A stretch of DNA of 12,005 bases from the NCBI GenBank assembly GCA_903893935.1, contig CAITOD010000233.1:1-12005 (forward strand), read 5' to 3'. Position 1 is the stretch's first letter. Every line of letters begins with the position of its first letter. Shown here piece by piece: positions 1 to 12,005 of the stretch. A model generated the notes under the pieces. That model made no database searches. It had not been told where the DNA came from and was given only the letters and a program-made list of their open reading frames with translations. The DNA is from an uncultured Sphingomonadales bacterium. GTDB taxonomy: Bacteria > Pseudomonadota > Alphaproteobacteria > Sphingomonadales > Sphingomonadaceae. A program made the translations under genes and the position numbers.

Positions 1-228
1 CAGCCCGACAACCCCGGCGCCGATCACGTCAATCCGGCCGACGATCTCATGGCCGGGGATGATCGGTGATTTTGGGTCCGGCAGTTCGCCATCGAAAACA
101 TGCAGGTCGGTGCGGCAGACGCCGCAGGCCAGAACCTTGACCCGAACCTGGCCAGGGTCAGGCTGGCGATCGGGTAGGTCTGTCCATACCAGCGGCGTCT
201 TCGCGTGATTGAGCACCATCGCCTTCAT
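1..228 (-). CDS. Zinc-dependent alcohol dehydrogenase, N-terminal part (cut by window edge)
   Basis: The first 76 residues of a medium-chain zinc alcohol dehydrogenase are visible; the rest lies beyond position 1. The start MKAMVLNH and the segment [10 protein letters not shown] (Cys38, Asp41, His43), followed by IPGHEIVG (His60, Glu61), are the catalytic-zinc and proton-relay residues of the GroES-like N-terminal domain. The family oxidises alcohols or reduces aldehydes with NAD(P)H in the cytoplasm. The ATG overlaps the TGA of the upstream nnr gene (ATGA), so translation is probably coupled. The neighbours suggest a fermentative or aldehyde-disposal role, which is inference. Substrate and cofactor cannot be judged because the Rossmann domain is missing from the window. 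The family call is firm; the subfamily is not. Confidence 0.9.
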
Positions 229-1756
229 GATTGTTTTCCCGGTTTCATGCGCAAATCTGCCTGCGCCCTGAGCTTTTGAAGCACGCTCGGCAGCACATCG
301 GGCAGATCCTGTGCCACCAGCCCCAGCCCGAATTCCGCTGCTGCCGCACCGTGCAGCCAGACCGCCGCCGCCGCGGCCTCGAACGGGGGCATGCCCTGCG
401 CAAGCAAACCCGCGATAAAGCCGGTCAGAATGTCGCCGCTGCCGCCTGTCGCCAGTTGGGCTGGCGCGTTCGCATTGATGATCGCGCGGCCATCGGGACT
501 GGCAATAACGGTATCGGGGCCCTTGAGCACAACCACCGAGCCGCTGCGTTTGGCGGCAGCGCGGGTGCGTTCCAGTTTGTCGCCCTCGACAGAAAATAGA
601 CGCATGAACTCGCCTGCATGCGGGGTCATCACGCAGGGGCCCTTGATGGCATCGAACAAATCCTCAGGCGCCTCGGCGAATGACGTGAGGGCATCGGCGT
701 CAAGGACCGTCGCACGCCCTGTAGCTAGCGCGGCCAGGACAAAGCTGCGCGTTTCAGCGCCAACCCCTGCCCCGGGCCAATGGCAATGACGTTACGGCGT
801 GTGTCGGCCAGCAAGGCCTGCCAGCCATCGGCGTCTTCAAGGCTGCGCACGATCGCGTTGATGAGGGACGTCGCGTAAACCGCCCACACCGCCTCTGGCG
901 CAGCGAGCGTTACCATGCCAGCGCCTGCGCGCGACGCGGCGAGAGCGGTCATCCGACTGGCACCGGTGATCGCCGCCCCGCCAAGGATCAGGACCTCGCC
1001 GCGCGCGTATTTGTAGCTTTCGGGCTCCGGCCACGGATAGATATCCTGCCACAGGCCAGGACCGTTCTCCCAGCACTTCGCGTCGATAGCATCCAGAACC
1101 GTTGCGGGCGTGCCGATTTCGGCAACGGCGATCTCGCCGCACAGCGTTCTGCCTGGATAAAGCAGGTGCCCCGGCTTCTTGCGGAAGAACGTTACCGTCA
1201 GGTTGGCCTTCGCCGCAGCGCCAAGGACGTTGCCCGAGGCGCCATCAAGGCCACTTGGCACATCGACAGCGCAAATCGGAATGTGGCGCGATGTCATGGC
1301 TTCGACCATCACCAGCGCCTCGCCGCCCAAGGGTCTGGCAAGACCGGCACCGAAAATCGCGTCGACCACCAGCCCGGCGCCGTCGAGACATGCAACATCG
1401 AAGGGCGCCAGTATGCCATCCCACAGGGCGGCGACGTGCGCCGCCTCGCCCGCAAGCTTGTCGCGCGTGCCGAGCAGGGCCACTTTCACCGGCCACCCGG
1501 CCGCTTCGAGGTGGCGCGCGGCGACAAAACCGTCACCGCCGTTGTTGCCTGGCCCGCATAGTACCGTGACCGGCCGCATCGGCCAGCGCTCGCCAATGGC
1601 GACAGCGACGGCAGCGCCGGCCGCCTCCATCATTACGAGACCGCTGACGCCAGCCGCTTCCGCAGCGCGATCAGCCTCTCCCATCTGCGCAGGCGTCAGG
1701 AGTACAAGCGCAGCGTATTTCGGGGCATTTTGCGCAGTCGCTTCGTCAATGTTCAT
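225..1756 (-). pseudogene. nnr: Bifunctional NAD(P)HX epimerase / ADP-dependent dehydratase, broken by a 1-bp frameshift
   Basis: This is the NAD(P)H-hydrate repair enzyme (YjeF/Nnr family), which epimerises and dehydrates damaged NAD(P)H. The N-terminal epimerase domain shows CGPGNNGGDGF (about residues 67-77), VDAIFGAGL (131-139) and DVPSGLDG (165-172). The C-terminal kinase-like dehydratase domain shows TGASRMTALAASRAGAG, then VLDADAL, LTPHAGEF and the catalytic GGSGD. After IGPG (about residue 329) the frame is lost at 770-773 and the first frame stops at 725. The correct continuation, G-A-G-V-G-A-E-T-R, is in another frame and runs to the TGA at 225. Adding one C to the plus-strand run of four restores a 510-residue protein of normal family length. 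I prefer the start at 1756: it lies close to where the conserved domain begins, has AGGA upstream, and leaves the 1824 motif in a promoter. An in-frame ATG at 1819 is possible. The gene is coupled to the alcohol dehydrogenase by ATGA. It may be a real mutation or a sequencing error. Confidence 0.88.
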
Positions 1757-1823
1757 CTTCAGTGGGTTCCTGGTTTCCGCGCAGCCATCTACAAGATACC
1801 CATCGGTCGGCTTCTGCATCAGG

Positions 1824-1839
1824 ATCGGAAATCACTCAC
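1824..1839 (-). promoter_or_regulatory. Shared regulatory motif, copy A (upstream of nnr)
   Basis: On the minus strand this reads GTGAGTGATTTCCGAT. It ends 67 bp before the preferred nnr start at 1756 and points toward it. It is one of five related 16-bp sites in the window that share T2, G5, T6 and TTCCG at positions 10-14. The spacing suits an activator site upstream of a promoter. The regulator is not known from the sequence. Confidence 0.6.
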
Positions 1840-1899
1840 ACCAACGTGGTGACGGCGAAAAATGGTATACGCCGCTCAGCAAAGTGCTGATGCGAATGG

Positions 1900-2043
1900 A
1901 TGTGGTGCAATTACGGCACGAATCTGAAACGCCATCACCCCGCGATCGCAGGTCGCATTGTTGCAACCGAACGCGTTGATATCGCGCATTTGTCCGATGG
2001 TGAGATCGCCGCAGCGGGTGACGCATTGCTGGCGGCCGGGTAA
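1900..2043 (+). CDS. Possible small protein of 47 residues, unknown function
   Basis: An ATG at 1900 opens a 47-codon frame ending in TAA at 2041-2043. Its C-terminal half (about residues 17-47) has the look of a real soluble helix: R-I-V-A-T-E-R-V-D-I-A-H-L-S-D-G-E-I, then alanine-rich to the end. I see no convincing ribosome binding site, and the frame is closed by a TGA just upstream at 1888, so it is either a small gene or the tail of a decayed one. It lies between the divergent nnr promoter region and a pair of hairpins that overlap its stop codon. I do not recognise a family. Confidence 0.3.
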   Translation: MWCNYGTNLKRHHPAIAGRIVATERVDIAHLSDGEIAAAGDALLAAG

Positions 2044-2065
2044 CCGGCCGGACGGCCCTAGGCCG
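2033..2065. terminator. Tandem hairpins, possible bidirectional terminator
   Basis: There are two adjacent perfect inverted repeats. The first is CGGCCGG (2033-2039) with CCGGCCG (2044-2050) around the loop GTAA. The second is CGGCC (2053-2057) with GGCCG (2061-2065) around CTA. They sit just before the 3' end of the minus-strand nitroreductase and at the end of the small plus-strand ORF. There is no T-run, so this is at best an atypical intrinsic terminator. Confidence 0.4.
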
Positions 2066-2075
2066 CTGCTGGTGT

Positions 2076-2636
2076 TCAGTCGCGCCAGCGCAGAACGGGC
2101 TTGTTCCGGGGCGGGGCCAATGTGGCCTCGCCGGGATGACCGACAATAATTGGCGCCACCGGGTGCCAGTTCGCCGGCAAGTCCAGTGCTGCCCGCGCCT
2201 CATCTGTTTCCAGCCAAGCGTGGGCAAAGCCGATCCAGCATGTGCCCAGGCCTCGGTCATGGGCGGCGAGCATCAGGTTCTGCGCGGCAAGCGTGCAGTC
2301 GATGTGCGACCACGAGTCCTCGCCTACGGCACAGATCAGGATCAACGCCGGGGCGTGGTAGAAAATCTGGAAATCCGGATTACCCAACATTTCCGCGAAG
2401 TGGTATGAGGGCGGGATTGCCGATGAACTTTGCATCATCAGCGCTTTTGCTTCGCGCGATATCCGTTCCAGCAGGGTGGCATCCCGCACGATGCAGAATG
2501 CCCAAGGCTGAAGGTTGATCGCGTTGGGAGCCTGGATCGCGGCATCGATCAGCGCTTCCAGCGTGGACTGATCTACGGGCTCCTGCGTGTAGGCACGCGT
2601 CGCACGGCGACCGTAGATGGCTTGCTTGAGTTCCAT
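2076..2636 (-). CDS. Nitroreductase family protein
   Basis: This 186-residue FMN-dependent nitroreductase-type oxidoreductase probably reduces nitro groups, quinones or similar acceptors with NAD(P)H in the cytoplasm. The family N-terminus is clear: AIYGRRATRAY (residues 6-16, FMN phosphate contact through the Arg-Arg) and AIQAPNAINLQPWAF (about 33-47). Later come IDCTLAAQNLMLAAHDRGLGTCWIG and PVAPIIVGHPGE, the usual FMN-binding C-terminal half. Length is normal for the small single-domain members. The start at 2636 is chosen over an in-frame ATG at 2681 because AGGAG lies at 2645-2649, eight bases upstream, and because MELKQAIYGRR is the usual family start. It appears monocistronic. Its leader is long if motif copy B at 2814 drives it. 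The physiological substrate is unknown. Confidence 0.9.
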   Translation of the reverse strand: MELKQAIYGRRATRAYTQEPVDQSTLEALIDAAIQAPNAINLQPWAFCIVRDATLLERISREAKALMMQSSSAIPPSYHFAEMLGNPDFQIFYHAPALILICAVGEDSWSHIDCTLAAQNLMLAAHDRGLGTCWIGFAHAWLETDEARAALDLPANWHPVAPIIVGHPGEATLAPPRNKPVLRWRD

Positions 2637-2695
2637 AGCGCGCGCTCCTGCCGTTTGGCGATTGCGCCGGCAAAGGAGCATTCACCGCCAATATT

Positions 2696-2711
2696 TGCGG
2701 AATAAAAATGT
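2696..2711 (-). promoter_or_regulatory. Degenerate candidate motif upstream of the nitroreductase
   Basis: The minus strand reads ACATTTTTATTCCGCA. It keeps the TTCCG core and T6 of the shared motif but lacks T2 and G5. It ends 59 bp before the nitroreductase ATG, close to the spacing seen for the other copies, and lies in the most AT-rich patch of the leader. It could equally be part of a core promoter. Confidence 0.2.
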
Positions 2712-2813
2712 GCCACATCAGTCGAGGGGGAGATGCGCGGCGATTGGCCGGCATCAGGCCCTGCGTCGAGGCGACGTCACGGCGAATACGCGGAGCCACA
2801 TCGGCGGGCCATC

Positions 2814-2829
2814 ATCGGAAATCACCTAC
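2814..2829 (-). promoter_or_regulatory. Shared regulatory motif, copy B (facing the nitroreductase)
   Basis: On the minus strand this reads GTAGGTGATTTCCGAT, sharing its last ten bases with copy A. It points toward the nitroreductase but lies 177 bp from its start, further than the other copies. Copy C is back to back with it 42 bp away. The 317-bp intergenic region 2637-2953 otherwise holds only inverted repeats and no convincing ORF. Confidence 0.55.
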
Positions 2830-2837
2830 ATCGGCCG

Positions 2838-2866
2838 TCCGGCAATTTCCTCGGGGTAATGCCGGA
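2838..2866. repeat. Inverted repeat between motif copies B and C
   Basis: TCCGGCA (2838-2844) pairs perfectly with TGCCGGA (2860-2866) across a 15-base spacer. It is nearly centred between the two divergent motif copies, as is another inverted repeat in the pta/gltD-like intergenic region. It could be an operator or simply GC-rich chance pairing. Confidence 0.35.
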
Positions 2867-2871
2867 ACACC

Positions 2872-2887
2872 GTGAGTAGATTCCGCG
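2872..2887 (+). promoter_or_regulatory. Shared regulatory motif, copy C (upstream of the phasin-like operon)
   Basis: The plus strand reads GTGAGTAGATTCCGCG. It matches the consensus at T2, GAGT and TTCCG and differs mainly at positions 7-9 and 15-16. It ends 66 bp before the ATG at 2954 and points toward it, nearly the same distance as copy A from nnr. Confidence 0.5.
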
Positions 2888-2902
2888 CCTTCCTTCCCAC
2901 CT

Positions 2903-2928
2903 GTTGAAACCATATCCACGGGTTCAAC
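2903..2928 (+). repeat. Inverted repeat in the leader of the phasin-like gene
   Basis: GTTGAAACC (2903-2911) and GGTTCAAC (2921-2928) can pair with one bulged A across the nine-base spacer ATATCCACG. It lies between motif copy C and the ribosome binding site. Depending on the transcription start it could be an RNA stem in the leader or a DNA site overlapping the promoter. Confidence 0.35.
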
Positions 2929-2953
2929 GGGGTCGGGATCAGGAGAACGCGTT

Positions 2954-3349
2954 ATGTCTGCCACTGCCGAAGCTCACGTGAACGTTAAAGATGCGCTCGA
3001 CCATGCCCGAGCAGCTGCGCAAGAATTGCATGGCGCGCTTAGCGACGCCGTGGCTGAGCATGGCGAGGCCATAACAAGCGATCTTGAGGCTCTGCCGCTA
3101 AAGGCCGAAGCCATCGCGGATTCGATCAGGACTTCGCTGGACGCACAGGCCGCCGCAACAAAGCTGAACCTTGGCGAGGCCGTGGCTTATCTCGGAGCTA
3201 CAGCGACTCATACCACGCAGGCTCTCAAGTGCTCTGGCCACGCAGCCGAGCAATCAATCCGGCAGGCCATCGGTAACGCTCGCGCTGCAGTTCAATCGAT
3301 CAGCGAAGCCGTTGCCGCGAAGCGCTCTGCGGCGTCCACACACAAATAG
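2954..3349 (+). CDS. Phasin-like alanine-rich helical protein
   Basis: This 131-residue protein is almost entirely amphipathic helix, rich in Ala, Glu, Lys and Ser, without signal peptide or membrane segment. Segments such as ALDHARAAAQELHGALSDAV and AEQSIRQAIGNARAAVQSI have the heptad-like alternation of phasins and related coiled-coil stress proteins. Phasins coat polyhydroxyalkanoate granules, but no PHA genes are nearby, so granule binding is not established. The start is secure: AGGAGA at 2941-2946 lies seven bases before the ATG. It is the first gene of a plus-strand unit; the next gene starts nine bases after its stop. It has one cysteine, near residue 93. Alternative readings are a generic helical stress protein or a DNA- or membrane-associated filament former. 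Confidence 0.6.
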   Translation: MSATAEAHVNVKDALDHARAAAQELHGALSDAVAEHGEAITSDLEALPLKAEAIADSIRTSLDAQAAATKLNLGEAVAYLGATATHTTQALKCSGHAAEQSIRQAIGNARAAVQSISEAVAAKRSAASTHK

Positions 3350-3358
3350 GAGCGAACC

Positions 3359-3934
3359 ATGCGCAATTTCGTCACGATCGCATTTGACGACAAAGGCAGG
3401 GCTTACAAAGGTCTCCACGCGCTCTGGCAACTCGACCATGCTGGTGAGGTTACCGTGCATGGGACCGCAGTGGTCCATCGGGATGACTGGGGCCAGGTTG
3501 AGGTCGATAGCAAGGAGACCCATCCCGTCCTCGCAACAGCGGTTGGCGTGGGCATCGGCGCAATACTCGGTGCGCTTGCAGGTCCGGTTGGCGTTGCAAT
3601 CGGCATTGCCGAGGGTGCTGCGATCGGTGCCGCGACCGGGGCCGTAATCGGCGGTGCCGTAGATCTGGATCGGTCGGACACGCGCCATCAGGCGGTCGTC
3701 GAGAGCCGGTTCGTGCTCGGTCGAGGGCAATCCGCTGTCATCGCCGACGTCAGCGAAGACTGGACGTCGGAAATCGACAAGCGAATGCAAAGCCTTGGGG
3801 GGACCGTTCATCGGCGCTCCGCGTCCAGCGTCCACAATGATGGCAAGCTCGATGATGGGTTCTACCCATACGAAGCCTATCTTTACCCCTACGAATATGT
3901 CCCGAGCAGATATTCTTCTTATGCCGCTCGGTAG
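3359..3934 (+). CDS. DUF1269 family membrane protein with tyrosine-rich tail
   Basis: This 191-residue protein has three parts. Residues 1-58 form an alpha/beta-like domain starting RNFVTIAFDD. A glycine/alanine-rich hydrophobic hairpin (about 59-103) runs AVGVGIGAILGALAGPVGVA and onward. A second soluble domain follows (about 110-155: ESRFVLGRGQSAVIADVSED, then IDKRMQSLGGTV). This order is that of DUF1269 proteins, whose function is not established. The last 25 residues are unusual: eight tyrosines, with YPYE occurring twice. AGGAG at 3348-3352, overlapping the previous stop codon, gives good support for the start. The context suggests an envelope stress role together with its operon partners. 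Confidence 0.75.
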   Translation: MRNFVTIAFDDKGRAYKGLHALWQLDHAGEVTVHGTAVVHRDDWGQVEVDSKETHPVLATAVGVGIGAILGALAGPVGVAIGIAEGAAIGAATGAVIGGAVDLDRSDTRHQAVVESRFVLGRGQSAVIADVSEDWTSEIDKRMQSLGGTVHRRSASSVHNDGKLDDGFYPYEAYLYPYEYVPSRYSSYAAR

Positions 3935-3983
3935 TGTTGTCAGAGTTCAGGCGCACGATGGATGCAGAAAAGGATATTGAGCT

Positions 3984-4223
3984 ATGCAGGATTCCGTTTC
4001 CAAGCGCTCGCCTACCCATCGATGGTACTGGCTGACGGCCCTTCTTGCGGTGGTGGTCGCAGGGGCTCTCTGGCTTGACGCCCTTTGGGGCACCGGCAAC
4101 AAGGCCGCGCCTGTCCCGCCTGTCGCCAAATCGACGGAGTGGGCACCTGAGCCAGCAGGTCCGGCCGTGCCGGTCAACCTGCCCAAAACCCCGATGACGA
4201 ACACGCCGGACAAGGCGCCATGA
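3984..4223 (+). CDS. Small single-pass membrane protein, proline-rich
   Basis: This 79-residue protein has a positively charged N-terminus (residues 1-13), one membrane helix (about 14-32, WYWLTALLAVVVAGALWLDAL) and a proline-rich tail (about 42-79) that would lie in the periplasm. The helix is followed by no clear cleavage site, so a membrane anchor is more likely than a secreted form. A weak AAAGGA at 3968-3973 precedes the ATG. The stop codon overlaps the start of the erythromycin-esterase gene (ATGA at 4220-4223), so the two are probably made together. I do not recognise a family. Confidence 0.65.
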   Translation: MQDSVSKRSPTHRWYWLTALLAVVVAGALWLDALWGTGNKAAPVPPVAKSTEWAPEPAGPAVPVNLPKTPMTNTPDKAP

Positions 4224-5578
4224 CCGCTTCGGGAAAAGGTATCGCCATCGATGACCAGATCTTGCCTGAGCGGGCCGCTCTAGTCGCGCGATTGCATGAG
4301 GCGGGAGAACCTTTACCAGTTGCCGAGGCACCGGACTTTGCCGATGCTTTCGATCGGTTTGGCGACGCCAGGATCGTGCTGCTGGGCGAGGCGACCCATG
4401 GCACGCATGAGTTCTACGCGGCACGCGCGGCGATCACGCAGCGGCTGATCGAAAAGCATGGTTTCAATATCGTCGCCGTTGAAGGCGATTGGCCCGATAT
4501 CGCCCGCATCGACGACTATGTGCGCCACAATGCTCCGCGCCCGCAGCGAGGCGACCCGTTCTTGCGTTTCCCCACGTGGATGTGGCGTAACGAGGAGGTG
4601 CTGGGCTTTGCCGACTGGCTGCGCCAGCACAACGCCGGCCTGCCCGAGACAGCGCGCGCGAGCATGCGCGGGCTTGATGTCTACAGTCTGGGGGTATCCA
4701 TCCATGCGGTGGTTGCCTATCTTGACGCTCATGATTCCGCTGCCGCCGAAGAAGCGCGCCGCCGTTATGGCCGTCTGACCCGCTGGCAGGACGAGCCACA
4801 GGAATATGGACAGGCAGTGCAGCATGGTCATCTGGCGGGGTGCGAAGAGGCGGTCGTTGCCCAATTGCGCACGTTGCTGGCGCAGCGGATGCAATTGATC
4901 GCCCGGGACGGCGCTACGGACGGTGAGGCCTATCTTGATGTCGAACAGAACGCGCGCATCGTGCGGGCTGCGGAAAGCTACTACCGCGCGATGTATCGGG
5001 GCGGAGGCGCAAGCTGGAACCTGCGCGACCGGCACATGTTCGACACCGTGCAGCGGCTGATGGCCCACCGGCAGGATGCCCGCGCGGTGATCTGGGCGCA
5101 CAATTCGCACGTCGGCAATGCATCGGCCACCGCGATGGGCTGGCGCGGCGAGTTCAATATCGGCCAGTTGCTCCGCACCGCCTATGGCGAGGATGCCGTG
5201 CTGATCGGCTTTGGCACCGATCGCGGGACGGTTGCTGCCGCTTCGGACTGGGGAGCGGAGATGCAGGTGATGGAGCTTCGCCCAGCGCGCCAACACAGTT
5301 GGGAAGAAGCCTTTCGCCGCACCGGTCTTGCCCGCAGCCTGACCGACTGGCGCGGGGCCAAACGGGGCGGGCTGGCTGATGTTCTGTCGCAGAGCTTACT
5401 CGAGCGGGCAGTGGGCGTGGTTTATCGGCCGCAGTCCGAGCTTTCGAGCCATTATTTTGAAGCAGTATTGGCCGACCAGTTCGATGCCTATGTCTGGTTC
5501 GAGGAAACCCATGCGGTCAGTCCGCTCGGGGCTGAGCGGCCGCATGGTGCACCCGAAACTTGGCCGTTCGGACTGTGA
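4220..5578 (+). CDS. Erythromycin esterase family protein
   Basis: This 452-residue protein of the EreA/succinoglycan-biosynthesis-like hydrolase superfamily has the family motifs in order: VLLGEATHGTHEFY (residues 53-66, with His60 and Glu64), VAVEGDWPD (85-93, Glu88), WNLRDRHM (266-273) and IWAHNSHVGN (291-300, His294 and His297). These are the expected active-site Glu and His residues, so the enzyme looks intact. True Ere enzymes hydrolyse the macrolide lactone ring, but most chromosomal members of this superfamily have no shown activity on erythromycin. The setting here, beside stress and redox genes, argues against an antibiotic resistance role. There is no signal peptide. The start overlaps the preceding stop by ATGA. 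It is the last gene of the plus-strand unit, convergent with the Amt gene. Confidence 0.88.
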   Translation: MTASGKGIAIDDQILPERAALVARLHEAGEPLPVAEAPDFADAFDRFGDARIVLLGEATHGTHEFYAARAAITQRLIEKHGFNIVAVEGDWPDIARIDDYVRHNAPRPQRGDPFLRFPTWMWRNEEVLGFADWLRQHNAGLPETARASMRGLDVYSLGVSIHAVVAYLDAHDSAAAEEARRRYGRLTRWQDEPQEYGQAVQHGHLAGCEEAVVAQLRTLLAQRMQLIARDGATDGEAYLDVEQNARIVRAAESYYRAMYRGGGASWNLRDRHMFDTVQRLMAHRQDARAVIWAHNSHVGNASATAMGWRGEFNIGQLLRTAYGEDAVLIGFGTDRGTVAAASDWGAEMQVMELRPARQHSWEEAFRRTGLARSLTDWRGAKRGGLADVLSQSLLERAVGVVYRPQSELSSHYFEAVLADQFDAYVWFEETHAVSPLGAERPHGAPETWPFGL

Positions 5579-5820
5579 CTGCGAGCAAAGCCGCTCGGGC
5601 CAGCGCGCGAGGGGGGTGATGGGCTGGGATCTTCCTCGGTCATCCGCCGCTTTCCGCCTTACGCATCGCGATGAAGGCGTCAACGGACATATCAGGGCTG
5701 TTGCACCGCTCGGACTGAGGCGCACGCCGCCCGCCGTGTACCGGGGGGAATTCGACGCACGCGTGCTGGCCCGCGCCTTTCTCGCGCTCCATGGCGCGGG
5801 GCATGACCAGCCGGCTCCCA
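5579..5820. other. Convergent intergenic region with one doubtful small ORF
   Basis: These 242 bases separate the 3' ends of the esterase and Amt genes. A minus-strand frame at 5640-5804 would encode 54 residues ending D-M-S-V-D-A-F-I-A-M-R-K, whose last third has protein-like codons, but it has no good ribosome binding site and no family I recognise. It could be the residue of a lost third gene of the pta-amt unit. Otherwise I see only GC-rich sequence. Confidence 0.2.
5582..5597 (+). terminator. Weak hairpin after the erythromycin-esterase gene
   Basis: CGAGC (5582-5586) and GCTCG (5593-5597) form a five-base stem around a six-base loop, four bases after the stop codon. There is no T-run, so function as a terminator is only possible. 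Confidence 0.2.
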
Positions 5821-7080
5821 TCATGTCCGACTGAGGGTTTCGCCCAAGAATGCCGCATCCAGCCCTTCGACCTCCTGCGCTCGCGTCACTCGAAGCCCGA
5901 CCGTCAGGTCGACCAGCTTGAGCAGCAGCAGTGTCATCCCGCCACAAAAGACGACAGTGGCGACCATGCCGATCGCCTGGATGCCCAACTGGTGACGACC
6001 GGCCAAGACGACCCCGTTCGACAACGGACCATAGGCACAAACCCCGGTGGCCAGCACGCCGATCATCCCGCCCACGCCATGGACGCCGAATGCATCGAGA
6101 CTGTCGTCATAGCCCATGCGGACCTTGACCACCTTGATAGCGAAATAACTGGCGGCGCCGGCAGCGACGCCGATGCCCAGGGCGGCTGCGGGCAGGACGA
6201 AGCCGGCGGCCGGGGTGATCGCGACCATCCCGGCCACCCCACCGGTCAGGGGGCCGAGCACCGACAGCTTGCGGGTGTGCGCCCACTCGATCGGCAGCCA
6301 GGACAGCGCGCCTGCCGCTGCGGCCAGTTGGGTAACCAGCACGGCCAAGCCGGCATTGCCGTTGGCGCCGCCCGCCGCGCCGGAATTGAAGCCCAGCCAG
6401 CCGACCCACAGCAGGCAGGCGCCGATAACGGCACAGGAGACGTTCCAGTTCGGCATGGCATCGCGGCCATAACCGACCCGCTTGCCGAGATAGAGCGCGC
6501 AGGTCAGCCCGGCGACGCCGGCATTGATTTCCACCACGGTGCCACCGGCATAGTCGGCCAGCCCCAATTGGTGCAGCCACCCTTGCGGGCTCCATACCCA
6601 ATGCGCGACGGGCGCATAGACGGCGATGGTCCAGGCGACCACCAGCAACAGCAGCGCGCGGAATTTCAGGCGGTCGGCAAAGGCGCCAGTGACGACGGCC
6701 GGGGTGATGATCGCAAAGGTCATCTGGAAGAACACGAAGACGCTTTGCGGGATCGCCATCGGCTGGGCGCCGGGGCTGCCCGCGCCCAGCACGAATGGCT
6801 GGTTCCAGCCGCTCGCCAGATTGCCGAGCCACGCGGCGGACAGGCCGCCGATCCACGGCGATCCAGGCGCAAACGCCAGGCTGTAGCCGATTACCATCCA
6901 GGTGACGGACACAGCCGCGCAGATGATGAAGCTTTGCATCATGATCGCCAGCACGTCCTTGCGGCGCACCATCCCGCCATAGAACAGCACCAGCCCGGGG
7001 ATGGTCATCATCAGCACCAGCACGCCGCAGACCAGCACCCAGGCGGTATCGCCCGAATTGATCGCCAGGCCGGCCATCAC
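5821..7080 (-). CDS. amt: Amt/Mep-type ammonium transporter with Glu at the first twin-His position
   Basis: This 419-residue inner-membrane protein has about eleven hydrophobic helices. It begins like mature Amt proteins (AINSGDTAWVLVCGVLVLMM, then PGLVLFYGGMVRRKDVL) without a separate signal peptide. Conserved features are the pore phenylalanines (Phe122 in FFQMTFAIIT, Phe231 in GWLGFNSG), Asp176 in LADYAGGTVV and the second pore histidine, His334, in FGVHGVGG. The first twin-His residue (E. coli AmtB His168, in GGTVVHINAA) is replaced by Glu184 (GGTVVEINAG). The same substitution is known in yeast Mep1 and Mep3. The C-terminal tail VEGLDAAFLGET departs from the usual EREGLDLSEHGE. No glnK lies beside it. 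The ATG overlaps the pta stop (ATGA), so it is the second gene of that operon. It is an ammonium transporter or sensor; specificity is uncertain. Confidence 0.92.
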   Translation of the reverse strand: MMAGLAINSGDTAWVLVCGVLVLMMTIPGLVLFYGGMVRRKDVLAIMMQSFIICAAVSVTWMVIGYSLAFAPGSPWIGGLSAAWLGNLASGWNQPFVLGAGSPGAQPMAIPQSVFVFFQMTFAIITPAVVTGAFADRLKFRALLLLVVAWTIAVYAPVAHWVWSPQGWLHQLGLADYAGGTVVEINAGVAGLTCALYLGKRVGYGRDAMPNWNVSCAVIGACLLWVGWLGFNSGAAGGANGNAGLAVLVTQLAAAAGALSWLPIEWAHTRKLSVLGPLTGGVAGMVAITPAAGFVLPAAALGIGVAAGAASYFAIKVVKVRMGYDDSLDAFGVHGVGGMIGVLATGVCAYGPLSNGVVLAGRHQLGIQAIGMVATVVFCGGMTLLLLKLVDLTVGLRVTRAQEVEGLDAAFLGETLSRT

Positions 7081-8444
7081 TGCGCCACCTCAGGGGTGAG
7101 CAGGCTGGGGTCCTGCGCCAGCGCCTGGGCGTAGAGCACGGCGGCCGCTGCTGAAAAGCGGCGCGCGGCGCCATTGTCGGCGCGGCTGCCCAGGATGATC
7201 GGCACGCGGGCGCCGACCACCAGCCCGGCGGTCTGGGCGTCGGCCATGAAGGCCAGGTTCTTGTAGAGCATGTTGCCGGCTTCGATATTGGGCACGATCA
7301 GGACATCCGCGGCCCCGGCGACGGGCGAGCGTATCCCCTTGATCCGCGCCGCATCCGCATCGATCGCGGCGTCGAGGTCGAGCGGGCCATCGACGATGCC
7401 GCCGACGATCTGGCCCCGGTCGGCCATCTTGGCGAGGATCGCGCCGTCCAGCGTCGCCGGCATCGCGGTCCTGACGGTTTCCACCGCTGCCAGCACCGCG
7501 ACTTTCGGTGCCGCGATCCCCATGGCGCGGGCAAAGCCGATCGCATTCTGGCAGATGTCGCGCTTCTGGTCGGTGTCGGGGGCGACATTGAGCGCCACGT
7601 CGCTGATCACGAAACGCCGGGCATAGGTCGGCGCCGAGACCATCAGGCAATGGCTGATCAGCCGTCCGGTGCGCAGCCCGGCCTCCTTTTGCAGGACCGC
7701 GTGCAACAGCACGTCGCTGTGCAGGCTGCCTTTCATCAAGGCTTGCAGCGCGCCGCTGCCGGCCTGGGTCGCGGCCTGCATGGCGGAGTCTTCCGGTCCC
7801 GAGGTGCCGACGATCCGCAGGCCGGTCAGGTCGATCCCGGCGCTCTTGGCGATGGCGCGCAGTTCGGCTTCCGGCCCGAACAGCACGGGCACGATCAACC
7901 CGGCCTGCGCCGCCTCCAAGGCGCCCGCCAGCGCCTCGACGCTGCAGGGGTGGACGATGCCGGTCAGCATCGGCTGGAGCGTCCGGCAACGATCGAGCAG
8001 CCCGTCGAGCCGATGTTCGGTGACTTCGCGCTGCTGCGGATGCAGCGACGCGGCGACTTGGATCACGGCCTGGATGATCGACCGACCGCAAGCCGCCGTC
8101 ACCGTTCCGGCAAGGGTGATCTGCCTCGACGCGGGCGAAGTGGCCTCTACCACCAGCGCAACGGTCAGGGTGGTGTCGAACAGATCGCCCGCGTCCTCTG
8201 CCAGCGTCGCGCTGAATGATCGGATCGTCGCGCCAGGCCCGGGCAGCGCGGTCCCGACCAAGGCCGTCAGCGCGGCGGTCAGGATGGCAACGGCGCCCTT
8301 GCGATCGGACTCGGGGTCATGCGCGCTGCTGTTGCCAAAGGCTGCCCCCCATGCCCTGACATCGCGCAGTTGCAGCACGCGGGTTGCTGAAACCGTGTCG
8401 CCGACCTTGATCTGGTTGAACGGTCGATTGTGAATGATGGTCAT
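7077..8444 (-). CDS. Phosphate acetyl/butyryltransferase with N-terminal MaoC-like domain
   Basis: This 455-residue protein matches the family annotated as bifunctional enoyl-CoA hydratase/phosphate acetyltransferase. The C-terminal two thirds is a Pta/Ptb domain: LMKGSLHSDVLLHAVL, FVISDVALNVAPD, VGGIVDGPLDLDAAID, LIVPNIEAGNMLYKNL and PIILGSRADN are all present. It would interconvert acetyl-CoA and acetyl-phosphate. The N-terminal part (about residues 5-130) resembles a MaoC hot-dog domain, but the catalytic GDxNPxHxD motif is reduced to F-G-N-S-S-A-H-D, so hydratase activity is doubtful. The start at 8444 is chosen over 8540 because MTIIHNRPFNQIKVGD is the family start, AAGG lies upstream, and the 8519 motif then falls in the promoter. 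It is first in an operon with amt and divergent from the GltD-like/nifJ operon. No acetate kinase follows. Confidence 0.88.
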   Translation of the reverse strand: MTIIHNRPFNQIKVGDTVSATRVLQLRDVRAWGAAFGNSSAHDPESDRKGAVAILTAALTALVGTALPGPGATIRSFSATLAEDAGDLFDTTLTVALVVEATSPASRQITLAGTVTAACGRSIIQAVIQVAASLHPQQREVTEHRLDGLLDRCRTLQPMLTGIVHPCSVEALAGALEAAQAGLIVPVLFGPEAELRAIAKSAGIDLTGLRIVGTSGPEDSAMQAATQAGSGALQALMKGSLHSDVLLHAVLQKEAGLRTGRLISHCLMVSAPTYARRFVISDVALNVAPDTDQKRDICQNAIGFARAMGIAAPKVAVLAAVETVRTAMPATLDGAILAKMADRGQIVGGIVDGPLDLDAAIDADAARIKGIRSPVAGAADVLIVPNIEAGNMLYKNLAFMADAQTAGLVVGARVPIILGSRADNGAARRFSAAAAVLYAQALAQDPSLLTPEVAQ

Positions 8445-8518
8445 GCTTGCTCGCCTTGATCCAGCGCATTTCGGCGCGTGAATGCGCGACCTACGCTGCC
8501 CCGAACAGGCGGCGTAGC

Positions 8519-8534
8519 ATCGGAAATAACCTAT
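8519..8534 (-). promoter_or_regulatory. Shared regulatory motif, copy D (upstream of pta)
   Basis: The minus strand reads ATAGGTTATTTCCGAT, sharing ATTTCCGAT with copies A and B. It points toward pta and ends 74 bp before its ATG. It faces away from copy E across 40 bp. Confidence 0.6.
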
Positions 8535-8558
8535 GGTCACCGCCGCATGGCGGTGGCC
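8535..8558. repeat. Near-perfect inverted repeat between motif copies D and E
   Basis: GGTCACCGCC (8535-8544) pairs with GGCGGTGGCC (8549-8558) around the loop GCAT, with a single T-G pair. It directly abuts copy D and lies in the middle of the 227-bp divergent promoter region. It could be an operator or a barrier between the two transcription units. Confidence 0.5.
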
Positions 8559-8574
8559 GCATCCCGGTCGGTCC

Positions 8575-8590
8575 CTGAGTATTTTCCGAG
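8575..8590 (+). promoter_or_regulatory. Shared regulatory motif, copy E (upstream of the GltD-like/nifJ operon)
   Basis: The plus strand reads CTGAGTATTTTCCGAG, matching copy A at 12 of 16 positions including TGAGT and TTTCCGA. It points toward the ATG at 8672 and ends 81 bp before it. Confidence 0.5.
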
Positions 8591-8660
8591 TCTATGGCCT
8601 CCGGGCGCTGTCGCCTAGCGCGATGGGCATGCGGTCCGGGTCGTTCCCCGCTGCTCAGTC

Positions 8661-8671: not shown

Positions 8672-10321
8672 ATGCCTGCGCGGCAAACGGATTTAACGCC
8701 AGCCATCGACATGCTGCGCGCCAAGGGCACCGGCCCGGCGCGCGAGCAACGGCCGGTCTATGTGGACCTGATCCCGCCGTGCAACAATGCCTGTCCCGCA
8801 GGCGAAGATATCCAGGGCTGGCTCAATCTGGCCCAGGCTGGTCGCTACCGCGAGGCCTGGGAGACCATCTTGGCGGACAACCCGTTTCCTGCCGTTCATG
8901 GCCGGGTCTGCTATCACCCCTGCGAGACACAATGCAGCCGCGGTGAACTCGATTCCGCCGTCAGCATCCACGCCGTCGAACGCTTCCTGGGCGATCTGGC
9001 GATGGCCGAGGGCTGGGCGCCGCCAGCGGTTGCACCGTCCAGCGGCAAGCGCGTGCTGGTGGTCGGCGGCGGCCCCGGCGGGCTGTCGGCGGCGTATCAC
9101 CTCGCCAGGCTGGGGCATGCGGTGGAAATTCGCGACGCCGGCCCATTGCCCGGCGGGATGCTGCATTACGGCATTCCCGCCTACCGCCTGCCGCGCGTTG
9201 AACTGATGGCCGAGATTGGCCGCCTCGAAGCGATGGGGATCACGATCACCCGCAACCACAAGGTCACCGATGTGCTGGCCGAGCAGGCTGCGGGTCAGTT
9301 CGATGCGGTGTTCATCGCCATCGGTGCGCAGATCGGCAAGCGCGTCGATATCCCCGCGCGCGATGCCGGGCGGGTGTTCGAAGCGATCAACGTGCTCCAC
9401 GATGTCGAGACCGGCACGGCGCCAATGCTGGGGCGGCGCGTGATCATTTACGGTGGCGGCGATACCGCGATCGATGCGGCGCGCACCGCGCGGCGGCTGG
9501 GCGCAAGCGATGCGCTGATCGTCTATCGCCGCGACCGTGCCCATTTGCGCGCGCAGCCGGCGGACGCCGATGCGGCGCTGGACGAAGGCATTAAATTCAA
9601 ATGGCTGAGCACGATCAAGGACATTGGCGAAGGCGCGATCACCGTCGAGGAGATGCAACTGGATGCCGATGGCAAGCCACAGCCGACCGGAAGGACCGAA
9701 ACCCTGTCGGCGGATTCGGTGGTGCTGGCGCTGGGGCAGGACAGCGACAGCGGTTTCTTGAAGGACATTCCGGGGCTGGCGTTTGGCGCCAGCGGGGTGG
9801 TGGATATCGATGCCGACATGATGACCGGCCGGCCCGGACTGTTTGCCGGCGGCGATGTGACGCCGGGCTCGCGCACGGTCACGACTGCGGTCGGGCACGG
9901 CAAGAAGGCGGCCCGCAAGATCGATGCATGGTTGCGCAAGGTTTCGCCGCGCGCCGTAGCCCGCCACGATGTGGTGAGCTTCGATCAGCTCAACCTGCCG
10001 ATCTATGCCGCCGCGCCCTTGGCGGTCCAGACCCAGTTGACCGTCGCGGCACGACTGGTCGATGGTTTTGCCGAAATCACCGCCGGACTCAGTGCCGGCG
10101 AAGCGCAACATGAGGCGAAGCGCTGCCTGTCCTGCGGTAACTGCTTCGAATGCGACCAATGCTACGCCGCCTGCCCCGAAACGGCGATCATCAAGCTGGG
10201 GCCGGGCAAGTTCTACGAATTCGACCTCGATGCCTGCACCGGCTGCGGGGTGTGCTTCGAGCAATGCCCCTGCGCCGCGATCGCGATGATTCCCGAACCA
10301 GCCGCGGAGTCGCGCGCATGA
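8672..10321 (+). CDS. GltD-like NAD(P)H/FAD oxidoreductase with C-terminal 2x[4Fe-4S] ferredoxin domain
   Basis: This 549-residue flavoprotein resembles the glutamate synthase small subunit and the NfnB/dihydropyrimidine dehydrogenase N-terminal family. An N-terminal Fe-S domain carries PPCNNACPAGEDIQGW (Cys37, Cys41) and GRVCYHPCETQCSRG (Cys80, Cys84, Cys88). FAD binds at VLVVGGGPGGLSAAYHLARLG (from about 128) and NAD(P)H at VIIYGGGDTAIDAARTARRLG. LFAGGDVTPGSRTVTTAVGHGKKAA closes the FAD site. The added C-terminus has CLSCGNCFECDQCYAACP (Cys485-501) and CTGCGVCFEQCP (Cys522-532), two ferredoxin-type clusters. No glutamate synthase large subunit is present. Its stop overlaps the nifJ start (ATGA), so I infer that it passes electrons between pyruvate-derived ferredoxin or PFOR itself and NAD(P)H. 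The alternative of a ferredoxin-linked reductase for another partner is open. Confidence 0.9.
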   Translation: MPARQTDLTPAIDMLRAKGTGPAREQRPVYVDLIPPCNNACPAGEDIQGWLNLAQAGRYREAWETILADNPFPAVHGRVCYHPCETQCSRGELDSAVSIHAVERFLGDLAMAEGWAPPAVAPSSGKRVLVVGGGPGGLSAAYHLARLGHAVEIRDAGPLPGGMLHYGIPAYRLPRVELMAEIGRLEAMGITITRNHKVTDVLAEQAAGQFDAVFIAIGAQIGKRVDIPARDAGRVFEAINVLHDVETGTAPMLGRRVIIYGGGDTAIDAARTARRLGASDALIVYRRDRAHLRAQPADADAALDEGIKFKWLSTIKDIGEGAITVEEMQLDADGKPQPTGRTETLSADSVVLALGQDSDSGFLKDIPGLAFGASGVVDIDADMMTGRPGLFAGGDVTPGSRTVTTAVGHGKKAARKIDAWLRKVSPRAVARHDVVSFDQLNLPIYAAAPLAVQTQLTVAARLVDGFAEITAGLSAGEAQHEAKRCLSCGNCFECDQCYAACPETAIIKLGPGKFYEFDLDACTGCGVCFEQCPCAAIAMIPEPAAESRA

Positions 10322-12005
10322 CCGATGCCACATTGCCGATAACCGACACGATGGATGGCAACACTGCTGCCGCCCATGTCGCCTATCGCGTGAACGAAGT
10401 CTGCGCGATCTATCCGATCACGCCGTCCTCGACGATGGCCGACCTCGCCGACGAATGGTCGGCCGGGGGCCTTGCCAATATCTGGGGCAATGTCCCGGTG
10501 GTGCAGGAAATGCAGAGCGAGGGCGGTGCCGCTGGCGCGGTCCACGGCGCGCTGCAATCGGGCGCGCTGACCACGACCTTCACCGCATCGCAGGGCTTGT
10601 TGCTGATGCTGCCCAACATGTTCAAGATCGCCGGTGAACTGACGCCCACGGTGTTTCATGTCGCCGCACGTTCGATCGCCACGCAGGCGCTGTCGATCTT
10701 TGGCGACCATTCCGACGTGATGGCGATCCGGTCGACCGGCTTTGCCTTGCTGGCCTCGGGTTCGGTGCAGGACGCGCATGACATGGCGCTGATCGCGCAG
10801 ATGGCGACGCTGGAAAGCCGGGTGCCGTTCCTGCATTTCTTCGACGGCTTTCGCACCTCGCATGAGGTGAACAAGCTGACGATGTTGTCCGACGGCCAGA
10901 TCCGGCAAATGATCCGCGACGATCTGGTCCGCGCTCACCGCAGCCGGGCCTTGACTCCAGAGCGGCCGGTGGTGCGGGGGACGGCACAGAACCCGGACAC
11001 CTTCTTCCAAGCCCGTGAGTCCGCAAACCCATTCTATGCAAAAACGCCCGACATCGTCGCTGCGGCCATGGCCCAGTTCGCGCAAATAGCCGGGCGCACC
11101 TATTGCCTGTTCGAATATCACGGAGCAGCCGACGCCGAACTGGTGATCATCCTGATGGGCTCGTCTGCCGAAACCGCCCGCGCCACCGTGCAAGTGCTGG
11201 CCAAGGATCGCAAGGTCGGGGTGCTGCAGGTTCGCCTTTATCGCCCGTGGTCCGCTGAGCATTTCCTCGCCGCGCTGCCCGCCACGGTCAAGGCGGTCGC
11301 CGTGCTCGACCGCACCAAGGAGCCGGGCTCAACCGGCGAGCCGCTGTACCTCGATGTCGTCACCACCCTGGCGCAGGCCGTCGCCAGCGGCCAGCGCGCG
11401 ACGATGCCGCGCGTGATCGGCGGGCGCTACGGGCTGTCGTCGAAGGAATTCACCCCGGCGATGGTCAAGGCGGTGTTCGACGAATTATTGCAACCCGACC
11501 CGAAGAACGGCTTCACCGTCGGGATCAACGACGATGTCAGCGGCACCAGCCTGGCGTTCGATCCGGCGTTCTCGATCGAAGCCGACGATGTCGTGCGCGC
11601 GGTGTTCTACGGGCTGGGGTCGGACGGCACGGTCGGCGCCAACAAGGGCAGCGTGAAGATCCTGGCCAAGGACGCCGGACGCTATGCACAGGGCTATTTC
11701 GCCTATGATTCGCATAAATCCGGCGCCCAGACCGTCTCGCATTTGCGCTTCGGCCCGCGACCGATCGAAGCCCCCTACCTGATCGCGCAGGCCAGCTTCC
11801 TCGGCTGCCACCAGTTCAGCTTTGTCGAGCGCGTCGATATCCTGAAGCTCGCCGCGCCTGGCGCCACCCTGCTGCTCAATTGCCCCTATTCCGCCGACCA
11901 GACCTGGGCACATTTGCCGCGCTCGCTGCAGCAGGGAATACTCGACAAGCACATCCGGCTGTTCGTGATCGACGCCTCGAAGGTGACCGAAGCCGCCGGG
12001 CTGGG
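10318..12005 (+). CDS. nifJ: Pyruvate:ferredoxin (flavodoxin) oxidoreductase, N-terminal part (runs off window)
   Basis: 562 codons are visible of a protein that is usually near 1,170-1,190 residues. It oxidises pyruvate with CoA to acetyl-CoA and CO2, giving reduced ferredoxin or flavodoxin, and is oxygen-sensitive. Domain I shows YPITPSSTMADLADEW (32-47) and VVQEMQSEGGAAGAVHGAL, with Glu64 at the thiamine-contact position known from Desulfovibrio PFOR, then FTASQGLLLMLPNMFKIAGE and VAARSI (Arg118). Domain II follows around residues 250-370, and the gamma-like domain III includes GLGSDGTVGANKGSVKILA from about residue 431. The thiamine and cluster-binding C-terminal domains lie outside. The start overlaps the upstream stop (ATGA). 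The gene is second in the operon controlled from the divergent promoter with pta. Confidence 0.93.
   Translation, partial: MTDATLPITDTMDGNTAAAHVAYRVNEVCAIYPITPSSTMADLADEWSAGGLANIWGNVPVVQEMQSEGGAAGAVHGALQSGALTTTFTASQGLLLMLPNMFKIAGELTPTVFHVAARSIATQALSIFGDHSDVMAIRSTGFALLASGSVQDAHDMALIAQMATLESRVPFLHFFDGFRTSHEVNKLTMLSDGQIRQMIRDDLVRAHRSRALTPERPVVRGTAQNPDTFFQARESANPFYAKTPDIVAAAMAQFAQIAGRTYCLFEYHGAADAELVIILMGSSAETARATVQVLAKDRKVGVLQVRLYRPWSAEHFLAALPATVKAVAVLDRTKEPGSTGEPLYLDVVTTLAQAVASGQRATMPRVIGGRYGLSSKEFTPAMVKAVFDELLQPDPKNGFTVGINDDVSGTSLAFDPAFSIEADDVVRAVFYGLGSDGTVGANKGSVKILAKDAGRYAQGYFAYDSHKSGAQTVSHLRFGPRPIEAPYLIAQASFLGCHQFSFVERVDILKLAAPGATLLLNCPYSADQTWAHLPRSLQQGILDKHIRLFVIDASKVTEAAGL

Follow-up and report, generated by a model that had tools for sequence, protein, structure and literature searches.

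A conserved promoter element in alphaproteobacteria and its probable regulator, a histidine kinase fused to a FixJ-type output

The dormancy regulon of mycobacteria is controlled by DosR, a NarL/FixJ-family regulator that controls genes for nitroreductase, stress and anaerobic survival through a palindromic box. Hybrid kinases of the NahK/ErcS type are not known to have a second receiver with a helix-turn-helix (HTH) domain, and the hybrid two-component systems (HTCS) of Bacteroides have an AraC-type output. The Bacteroides systems join a kinase and a DNA-binding response regulator in one chain, with a membrane sensor and a role in polysaccharide use (PMC11253607), AcfR is a separate protein made of a receiver (REC) and an HTH domain (PMC7945327), and FixJ, whose site is TAAGTAATTTCCCTTA in S. 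meliloti and GTAGTTTCCC in systematic evolution of ligands by exponential enrichment (SELEX), has a reconstructed regulon of four genes in the Rhizobiales (PMC4999443). Here we describe an element that occurs five times (sites A to E) in a stretch of 12,005 nucleotides, referred to as the window, from contig CAITOD010000233.1 of an uncultured Sphingomonadales bacterium (assembly GCA_903893935.1). Sites A to E are a real regulatory element, and they are very probably activator sites of one regulator, a protein in which a FixJ-type REC-HTH output is covalently fused to a hybrid histidine kinase (HK). On the strength of sequence comparison this fused protein is a strongly supported, though unproven, candidate for the regulator of the motif.

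The element and its promoters

The 16-bp motif recognised in the original prediction is present five times, at the positions and on the strands given in Table 1, and the letters common to its copies (T2, G5, T6 and TTCCG at 10–14) as well as the distances of A, C, D and E from start codons are exactly as described there. The pattern RTRRGTNNTTTCCG, with up to two mismatches, has 8 matches in the window versus 2.58 expected, a number reached by 0 of 200 shuffles. With a matrix built from other genomes only, sites A to E were the top five places in the window (14.8–29.7), the next place scored 2.4, and the best of 40 shuffles scored 7.7. The rule that positions 3–4 are always GA or AG is true of A to E, but GG and AA also occur elsewhere, and the true element is longer than 16 bp: it reads TRRGTANWTTCCGARNCT, including C17 and T18, and is followed at fixed spacing by a −10-like hexamer, TAnnnT.

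The same element is also present in genomes of Methylocella, Rhodoblastus, Bradyrhizobium and Azospirillaceae. Its anatomy was taken from 80 stretches of nine other genomes, which hold part of the sites counted below in genomes with a gltD-like gene (127 matches, 2 of them dropped at stretch ends). The expectation that the motif would be found upstream of genes rather than inside them was borne out in these nine genomes, where 114 of the 125 sites lie outside called open reading frames (ORFs) of at least 100 aa, though ORFs, called with a simple in-house program, cover 70% of those bases (p 1e-46). The core columns of the matrix are fixed by the search pattern, and only columns 15–21 and 41–47 are independent of it; C17 is conserved in 91% and T18 in 98% of the sites, and of the 114 sites 40 have TAnnnT at offset 42 and 25 have it at offset 41, while the remaining offsets of the scan average 1.7. 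GTA(G) at positions 4–7 and (C)TRY at 17–20 form a near palindrome with its centre at position 12, approximately 42 bp before the inferred start. We also considered T18 as the first letter of a −35 box and dropped this idea, positions 18–23 being unlike TTGACA in the 114 sites; T18 is part of the second half-site.

Throughout the bin to which the window belongs (3.25 Mb, 755 contigs, 82% complete), TRRGTNNWTTCCG has 15 matches versus 3 for the backward control. By our reading A to E lie upstream of genes, as do 12 of the 15 matches in all, and three lie inside genes (contigs C29, C74 and C426). Divergent pairs of sites separate the gene of a zinc alcohol dehydrogenase from that of an LTXXQ protein (C141) and a YflT gene from a Ysc84 gene (C433); another site on C141 precedes an aldehyde dehydrogenase gene, after which comes an AlaDh/PNT-type gene, and one on C268 precedes an alcohol dehydrogenase by our reading, in which the start is taken further down since the longest possible ORF would cover the site. 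In the 12 aligned bin sites the additional columns show A14 in 10, T18 in 11 and A42 in 10. An nnr gene of genome G123, like that of the window, has a site, 56 bp upstream. The original proposal of one regulator over these units is strongly supported by this distribution, with the motif genome-wide, mostly upstream of genes, and also before related genes in other orders.

A centre near −42, a −10 hexamer and no −35 consensus make up the usual geometry of class II activation, which argues against the fused protein being a repressor or the sites serving both ways; we regard that alternative as unlikely, although the direction of control is not readable from sequence alone.

The fused kinase and its occurrence with the element

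Like the motif and its placement, the domains of the fused protein and its co-occurrence with and closeness to the motif were computed. Genes that encode such a fusion of a kinase with a FixJ-type output are flanked by motif sites in Methylocella silvestris (locus L049) and Bradyrhizobium sp. dw_411 (L051). A protein of the same kind, of 1444 residues with the order CheB-CheR-PAS-HK-REC-REC-HTH, is encoded on contig C626 of the window's genome, and the site upstream of it precedes a gene for a 65-aa protein and that of the giant regulator, overlapping the last 7 bases of the preceding gene. All three proteins have HATPase_c, two receivers (Response_reg) and GerE in Pfam and share the HTH letters ISQRTVENHRA; HisKA was called in L049 and L051 and not in C626, and H874 is invariant. 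In the three-row alignment of the REC-HTH ends (A2), receiver residues D9, D10, D53, T81 and K103 are invariant. The fused protein has the receiver with phospho-acceptor Asp and the LuxR-type HTH of the NarL/FixJ family, and it holds kinase, receiver and DNA-binding domain in one chain as hybrid regulators do. The input domains vary (CheB-CheR-PAS or PAS alone), and the output and the box are constant.

The gltD-like gene downstream of site E is scattered over 49 loci (L048–L096) in Alphaproteobacteria, Methylococcaceae, Eremiobacterota and others, suggesting horizontal spread. At these loci TRRGTNNWTTCCG has 22 matches versus 1 backward, and the gltD-like unit is preceded by a site at 7 of 11 loci from genomes with a fused-type regulator and at 0 of the 38 others (the genomes of 11 of those 38 were not examined). 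Whole-genome motif counts cover 38 of the 49 loci in 37 genomes (omitted were L076, L079–L083, L085–L087, L090 and L092). When 38 genomes were searched with the A2 profile, fused-type proteins stood out at 293.9 bits or more, with 12 matches in 11 genomes including G000, and the rest scored 207.9 bits or less. The fused-type matches lie in open frames of 828–1500 aa in 11 of the 12, the other (G150) being cut by a contig end. The ten fused-type genomes among the 37 have 43, 32, 28, 15, 15, 11, 10, 5, 4 and 3 motifs, so that at least 3 motifs are found in 10/10 genomes with the protein versus 2/27 without it (p 1.9e-7), and the remaining 25 genomes have at most one each. As to conservation of the sites where the gltD-like gene is kept, two Sphingobium genomes have the gene, no fused regulator was seen in them and they have 0 motif matches, which indicates that the sites track the regulator and not the gene.

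The association also holds in a sample of 385 genomes drawn evenly from the class, the window's included, in which the fused gene was called at E <= 1e-70. At least one motif was present in 18/18 genomes with the fused protein versus 49/367 without it (p 2.6e-15), and at least two in 16/18 versus 9/367. The 18 fused-gene genomes hold 84 sites versus 7 for the backward control, and in 14 of them the nearest site, among those listed, is no more than 10 kb from the REC-HTH match. The smallest distances are 12, 49 and 107 bp, and those of 12 and 107 bp are on two large contigs. Open frames of 800–1549 aa surround 20 of the 21 fused-type matches of this sample. The exception (G205:C1:1149547-1150137) is a REC-HTH end of the fused type in a 377-aa frame of a genome rated complete, in which the kinase may be separate from the REC-HTH part. 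Among 12 loci examined, two of them cut by contig ends, six have a divergent site upstream of the fused ORF, at 96–202 bp from its called start. In a family sample (119 genomes), the fused gene was found at E <= 1e-60 in only three of the 118 others, G003, G031 and G095; G003 and G095 are the only other family genomes with 2 matches to the narrow pattern TRGGTANWTTCCGA, and in each of them one of these matches is near the fused-gene match, at 30 bp in G003 and at 3.9 kb in G095.

At some loci a single-receiver gene lies divergent from the fused regulator with the motif between them (L049 1525-1881, L177 13939-14304 and L180 9720-10286). The divergent site faces such a gene in G119, G120 and G121, and G124 has one at another motif-bearing locus. 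A possible role for it, which is a guess, could be that of a phosphate sink or feedback element.

Several observations weigh against the assignment. G133 has 4 motifs and no regulator was found in it, and G128 has 5 motifs with only a truncated fused-type copy (L154). In the class sample, nine genomes without the fused gene carry 2–3 motifs, one example being G414, where two exact motifs stand 640 bp apart on opposite strands (G414:C83:15734 and 16375) and no fused-type match was found in the genome. Only 8 candidates were scored per genome, so some fusions may have been missed; when all first-look candidates of the 12 exceptions were rescored, there was no match at E <= 1e-40 in these nine genomes or in G133, and the truncated piece remained the sole fused-type match in G128. 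Conversely, 4 of the 18 fused-gene genomes have no site near the gene among the sites listed (for G477 only the first places are listed), 12 of the 18 have just 1–3 exact motifs, and the backward control equals or exceeds the motif in G195 and G417 (3 vs 2 and 2 vs 2). In the family sample, G031 has the fused gene and 0 matches to TRGGTANWTTCCGA, and this pattern is without excess over the 118 other genomes (14 matches vs 19 backward). Moreover, C626 and the window are different contigs of an incomplete, fragmented bin, in which a binning error is possible, and co-occurrence alone would be no proof of contact between the fused protein and the motif.

Specificity and competing regulators

The output of the fused protein and its predicted site are variants of FixJ. 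Of the published sites (PMC4999443), TAAGTAATTTCCCTTA aligns position by position with TRRGTANWTTCC of this element, TAAGTAATTTCCCTTA and the SELEX site GTAGTTTCCC both agree with the first 12 positions of the element, and the core GTAnTTTCC of the fixK and SELEX sites is present here as well; the FixJ site has C after TTCC, whereas this element has G13, plus an additional A14 and CT at 17–18. The REC-HTH end scores 234 bits with the FixJ model NF006900, just below the cut-off of 255, and 181 bits with FixJ in PDB (5xso), behind StyR (1yio, 187). Where FixJ 5xso reads RTIEVYR, the fused protein reads RTVENHR. Of 30 fused-type matches, 27 have the recognition helix RTVENHRA and three have H, T or A in place of its N; the truncated copy L154 also has RTVENHRA, compared with 0 of 18 weaker FixJ-like matches; the four matches in three family genomes comprise three RTVENHRA and one RTVETHRA. 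In NarL, the residue at the position of the N of ENHR contacts DNA, so that N and G13 form a testable pair, and we suggest that the N of ENHR may recognise G13.

The original prediction likened the motif to the sites of FixJ-type regulators, and this likeness stands as far as site alignment and the FixJ-type output go. We consider it very unlikely, however, that a classical FixJ, a separate REC-HTH protein working with FixL, reads the sites. Separate FixJ-like proteins do exist in many of the genomes, and the FixJ site TAAGTAATTTCCC is identical to TRRGTANWTTCCG but for its last letter. In the 11 fused-gene genomes, however, TRRGTANWTTCCGNNNCT, the version with G13, was counted 175 times (3 for the backward control) and the version with C (TTTCCC) 2 times (control 0). 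In addition, 27 genomes lack the fusion, and apart from G128 and G133 they have at most one motif though many hold FixJ-like proteins; the 4 LuxR-HTH genes detected in the bin, which is 82% complete, all score below the FixJ cut-off; and the 3–43 exact sites in the ten fused-gene genomes compare with the four genes of the reconstructed FixJ regulon. FixJ is also a protein of about 200 aa separate from its kinase, unlike the fused protein. FixLJ systems carry haem in the PAS domain of the kinase and have fixK as a target. Among 25 of 68 target families shown, fixK did not stand out, although no search aimed at fixK was made.

Another LuxR-type regulator of the same genome would be a highly improbable reader of the sites. 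The bin does contain a FixJ-like protein of 204 aa (C78), an LOV-HTH protein (C124) and an ErdR-like regulator (C411), and the HTH of the first is FixJ-like (137 bits to the FixJ model). Of the four contigs, however, only C626 has a TRRGTNNWTTCCG match, relatives of the C626 protein co-occur with the motif across the class, and the C78 protein scores just 84.7 bits with the fused-type model (profiling across genomes covered the fused type). The C124 protein (L029 11557-12198, minus strand) has 213 aa with PAS and LuxR-type HTH domains; its PAS domain is of the LOV kind by likeness to blue-light families, and we take the protein to resemble the light-regulated EL222.

It is extremely improbable that the element is part of an alternative sigma factor promoter such as that of EcfG, which reads GGAAC-N17-GTT, rather than an activator site. 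The predicted targets are similar to the general stress genes of EcfG and the complement of the element reads CGGAA, but the orientation is wrong, A or T follows GGAA, the second block is a sigma-70-like TAnnnT, one half of the element is near-palindromic, the GGAAC-N17-GTT pair was not seen in the columns of the 114 sites, and the element tracks a two-component protein. A chance origin of the motif was rejected on the window shuffles described above.

Predicted targets and comparison with known systems

We return to the fused protein as the regulator. A Pfam scan covered 83 proteins (80 of 105 first ORFs, chosen by hand, plus window 2954-3349, L028 30-620 and L020 4602-4796), and 25 of the 68 families found are shown. 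The most frequent were CsbD (6), PRC (6), LTXXQ (5), YflT (5), BON (4), OmpA (3), receivers (3), MFS (2) and Band_7 (2); single families include MCRA (oleate hydratase), GT20 (trehalose-type), PhaC, Pta and Nnr. Ten further proteins add a second MCRA, GlgE, a pyridoxal phosphate-dependent decarboxylase and a ferritin-like protein (by our reading glutamate decarboxylase and Dps), KaiC and a second Nnr. Together with pyruvate:ferredoxin oxidoreductase (PFOR), Pta and the nitroreductase of the window and the dehydrogenases of C141, these families make the predicted targets look like a combined set for general stress (CsbD, BON, PRC, Dps) and fermentation (PFOR, Pta, Adh). The targets resemble general stress genes as much as the low-oxygen genes proposed earlier, and the possible link to low oxygen comes from gene content only.

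The nitroreductase family gene is the likely target of B (Table 1). The nnr region (225-1819, minus strand) is broken into two frames near 725: 725-1819 holds YjeF_N and the first third of the dehydratase domain, and by our reading the remainder is in 225-659; this is either an assembly error or a broken gene. The cluster also contains an erythromycin-esterase family protein (4220-5578, plus strand; PF05139, 430.7 bits), for which the top matrix matches include no separate site.

Table 1. Sites, hexamers and adjoining genes in the window (PWM, position weight matrix score)
Feature	Position	Strand	Basis and remarks
Site A, 21-bp element	1818..1838	-	PWM 22.4; 16-mer 1824-1839; 67 bp before nnr ATG 1756
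-10-like hexamer of promoter A, TATCTT, offset 41-46	1793..1798	-	Alignment; offsets 41 and 42 enriched in relatives
nnr (NAD(P)HX epimerase/dehydratase), first part; predicted target of A	725..1756	-	Pfam YjeF_N, Carb_kinase
Site B, weakest of five	2808..2828	-	PWM 14.8; 16-mer 2814-2829
-10-like hexamer of promoter B, TATTCG	2783..2788	-	Alignment
Nitroreductase family gene	2076..2681	-	Pfam PF00881
Site C	2873..2893	+	PWM 23.1; 16-mer 2872-2887; 66 bp before ATG 2954
-10-like hexamer of promoter C, TATCCA	2913..2918	+	Alignment
First gene after C	2954..3349	+	Weak Apolipoprotein match, 23.7 bits, under cut-off 90; labelled phasin-like in the original prediction
Site D	8513..8533	-	PWM 18.9; 16-mer 8519-8534; 74 bp before ATG 8444
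-10-like hexamer of promoter D, TAGGTC	8488..8493	-	Alignment
Phosphate acetyl/butyryl transferase (pta), then amt (5821-7080)	7077..8444	-	Pfam PF01515, PF00909
Site E, best matrix match	8576..8596	+	PWM 29.7; 16-mer 8575-8590; 81 bp before ATG 8672
-10-like hexamer of promoter E, TAGCGC	8616..8621	+	Alignment
GltD-like oxidoreductase with ferredoxin domain	8672..10321	+	Pfam
Pyruvate:ferredoxin oxidoreductase, after GltD-like gene	10318-12003	+	Pfam; extends past window end

A signal perceived at the PAS or CheB/CheR part of the fused protein would cause the kinase to pass phosphate from its His to the C-terminal receiver. The HTH heads would then pair and bind TRRGTANWTTCCGARNCT, with halves GTAG-n9-CTAC centred approximately 42 bp before the inferred start, and could recruit RNA polymerase to a promoter that has a −10 and no clear −35; divergent pairs such as B/C and D/E would switch on both flanking units. 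One protein would thus sense stress and turn on survival genes. With confidence evenly divided, we propose more broadly that a global stress regulator made of one chain occurs here and there among the alphaproteobacteria. It would be a kinase of up to about 1500 residues, often with chemotaxis-type CheB and CheR domains, that has its own FixJ-type DNA head of changed specificity (ENHR, TTCCG) and serves up to about 40 promoters of genes for fermentation and for survival in a dormancy-like state; in some genomes its gene would have as neighbour a divergent single-receiver gene, whose product is perhaps a phosphate sink.

This would offer a likely role for the large CheB-CheR-kinase fusions, provide a direct prediction of protein–DNA specificity in the N of ENHR and G13, and link fermentative metabolism and general stress genes under one switch outside FixLJ/FixK and EcfG. 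It ties together motif, regulator family and target set, a combination that we did not find in print in the open-licence literature, where no paper was found that joins the fused protein with this motif.

Among known systems, NahK/ErcS-type hybrid kinases resemble the kinase-REC part of the fused protein, which matches NF041832 at 290 bits, below the cut-off of 400. The DosR system is alike in regulator family and in the kinds of targets and differs in its separate kinases, its box and its phylum. The one-chain principle is common to the Bacteroides systems and the fused protein. The membrane sensor and AraC-type output of HTCS proper contrast, however, with the two receivers, the LuxR/FixJ-type GerE output, the CheB/CheR/PAS inputs and the predicted stress targets of the protein described here.

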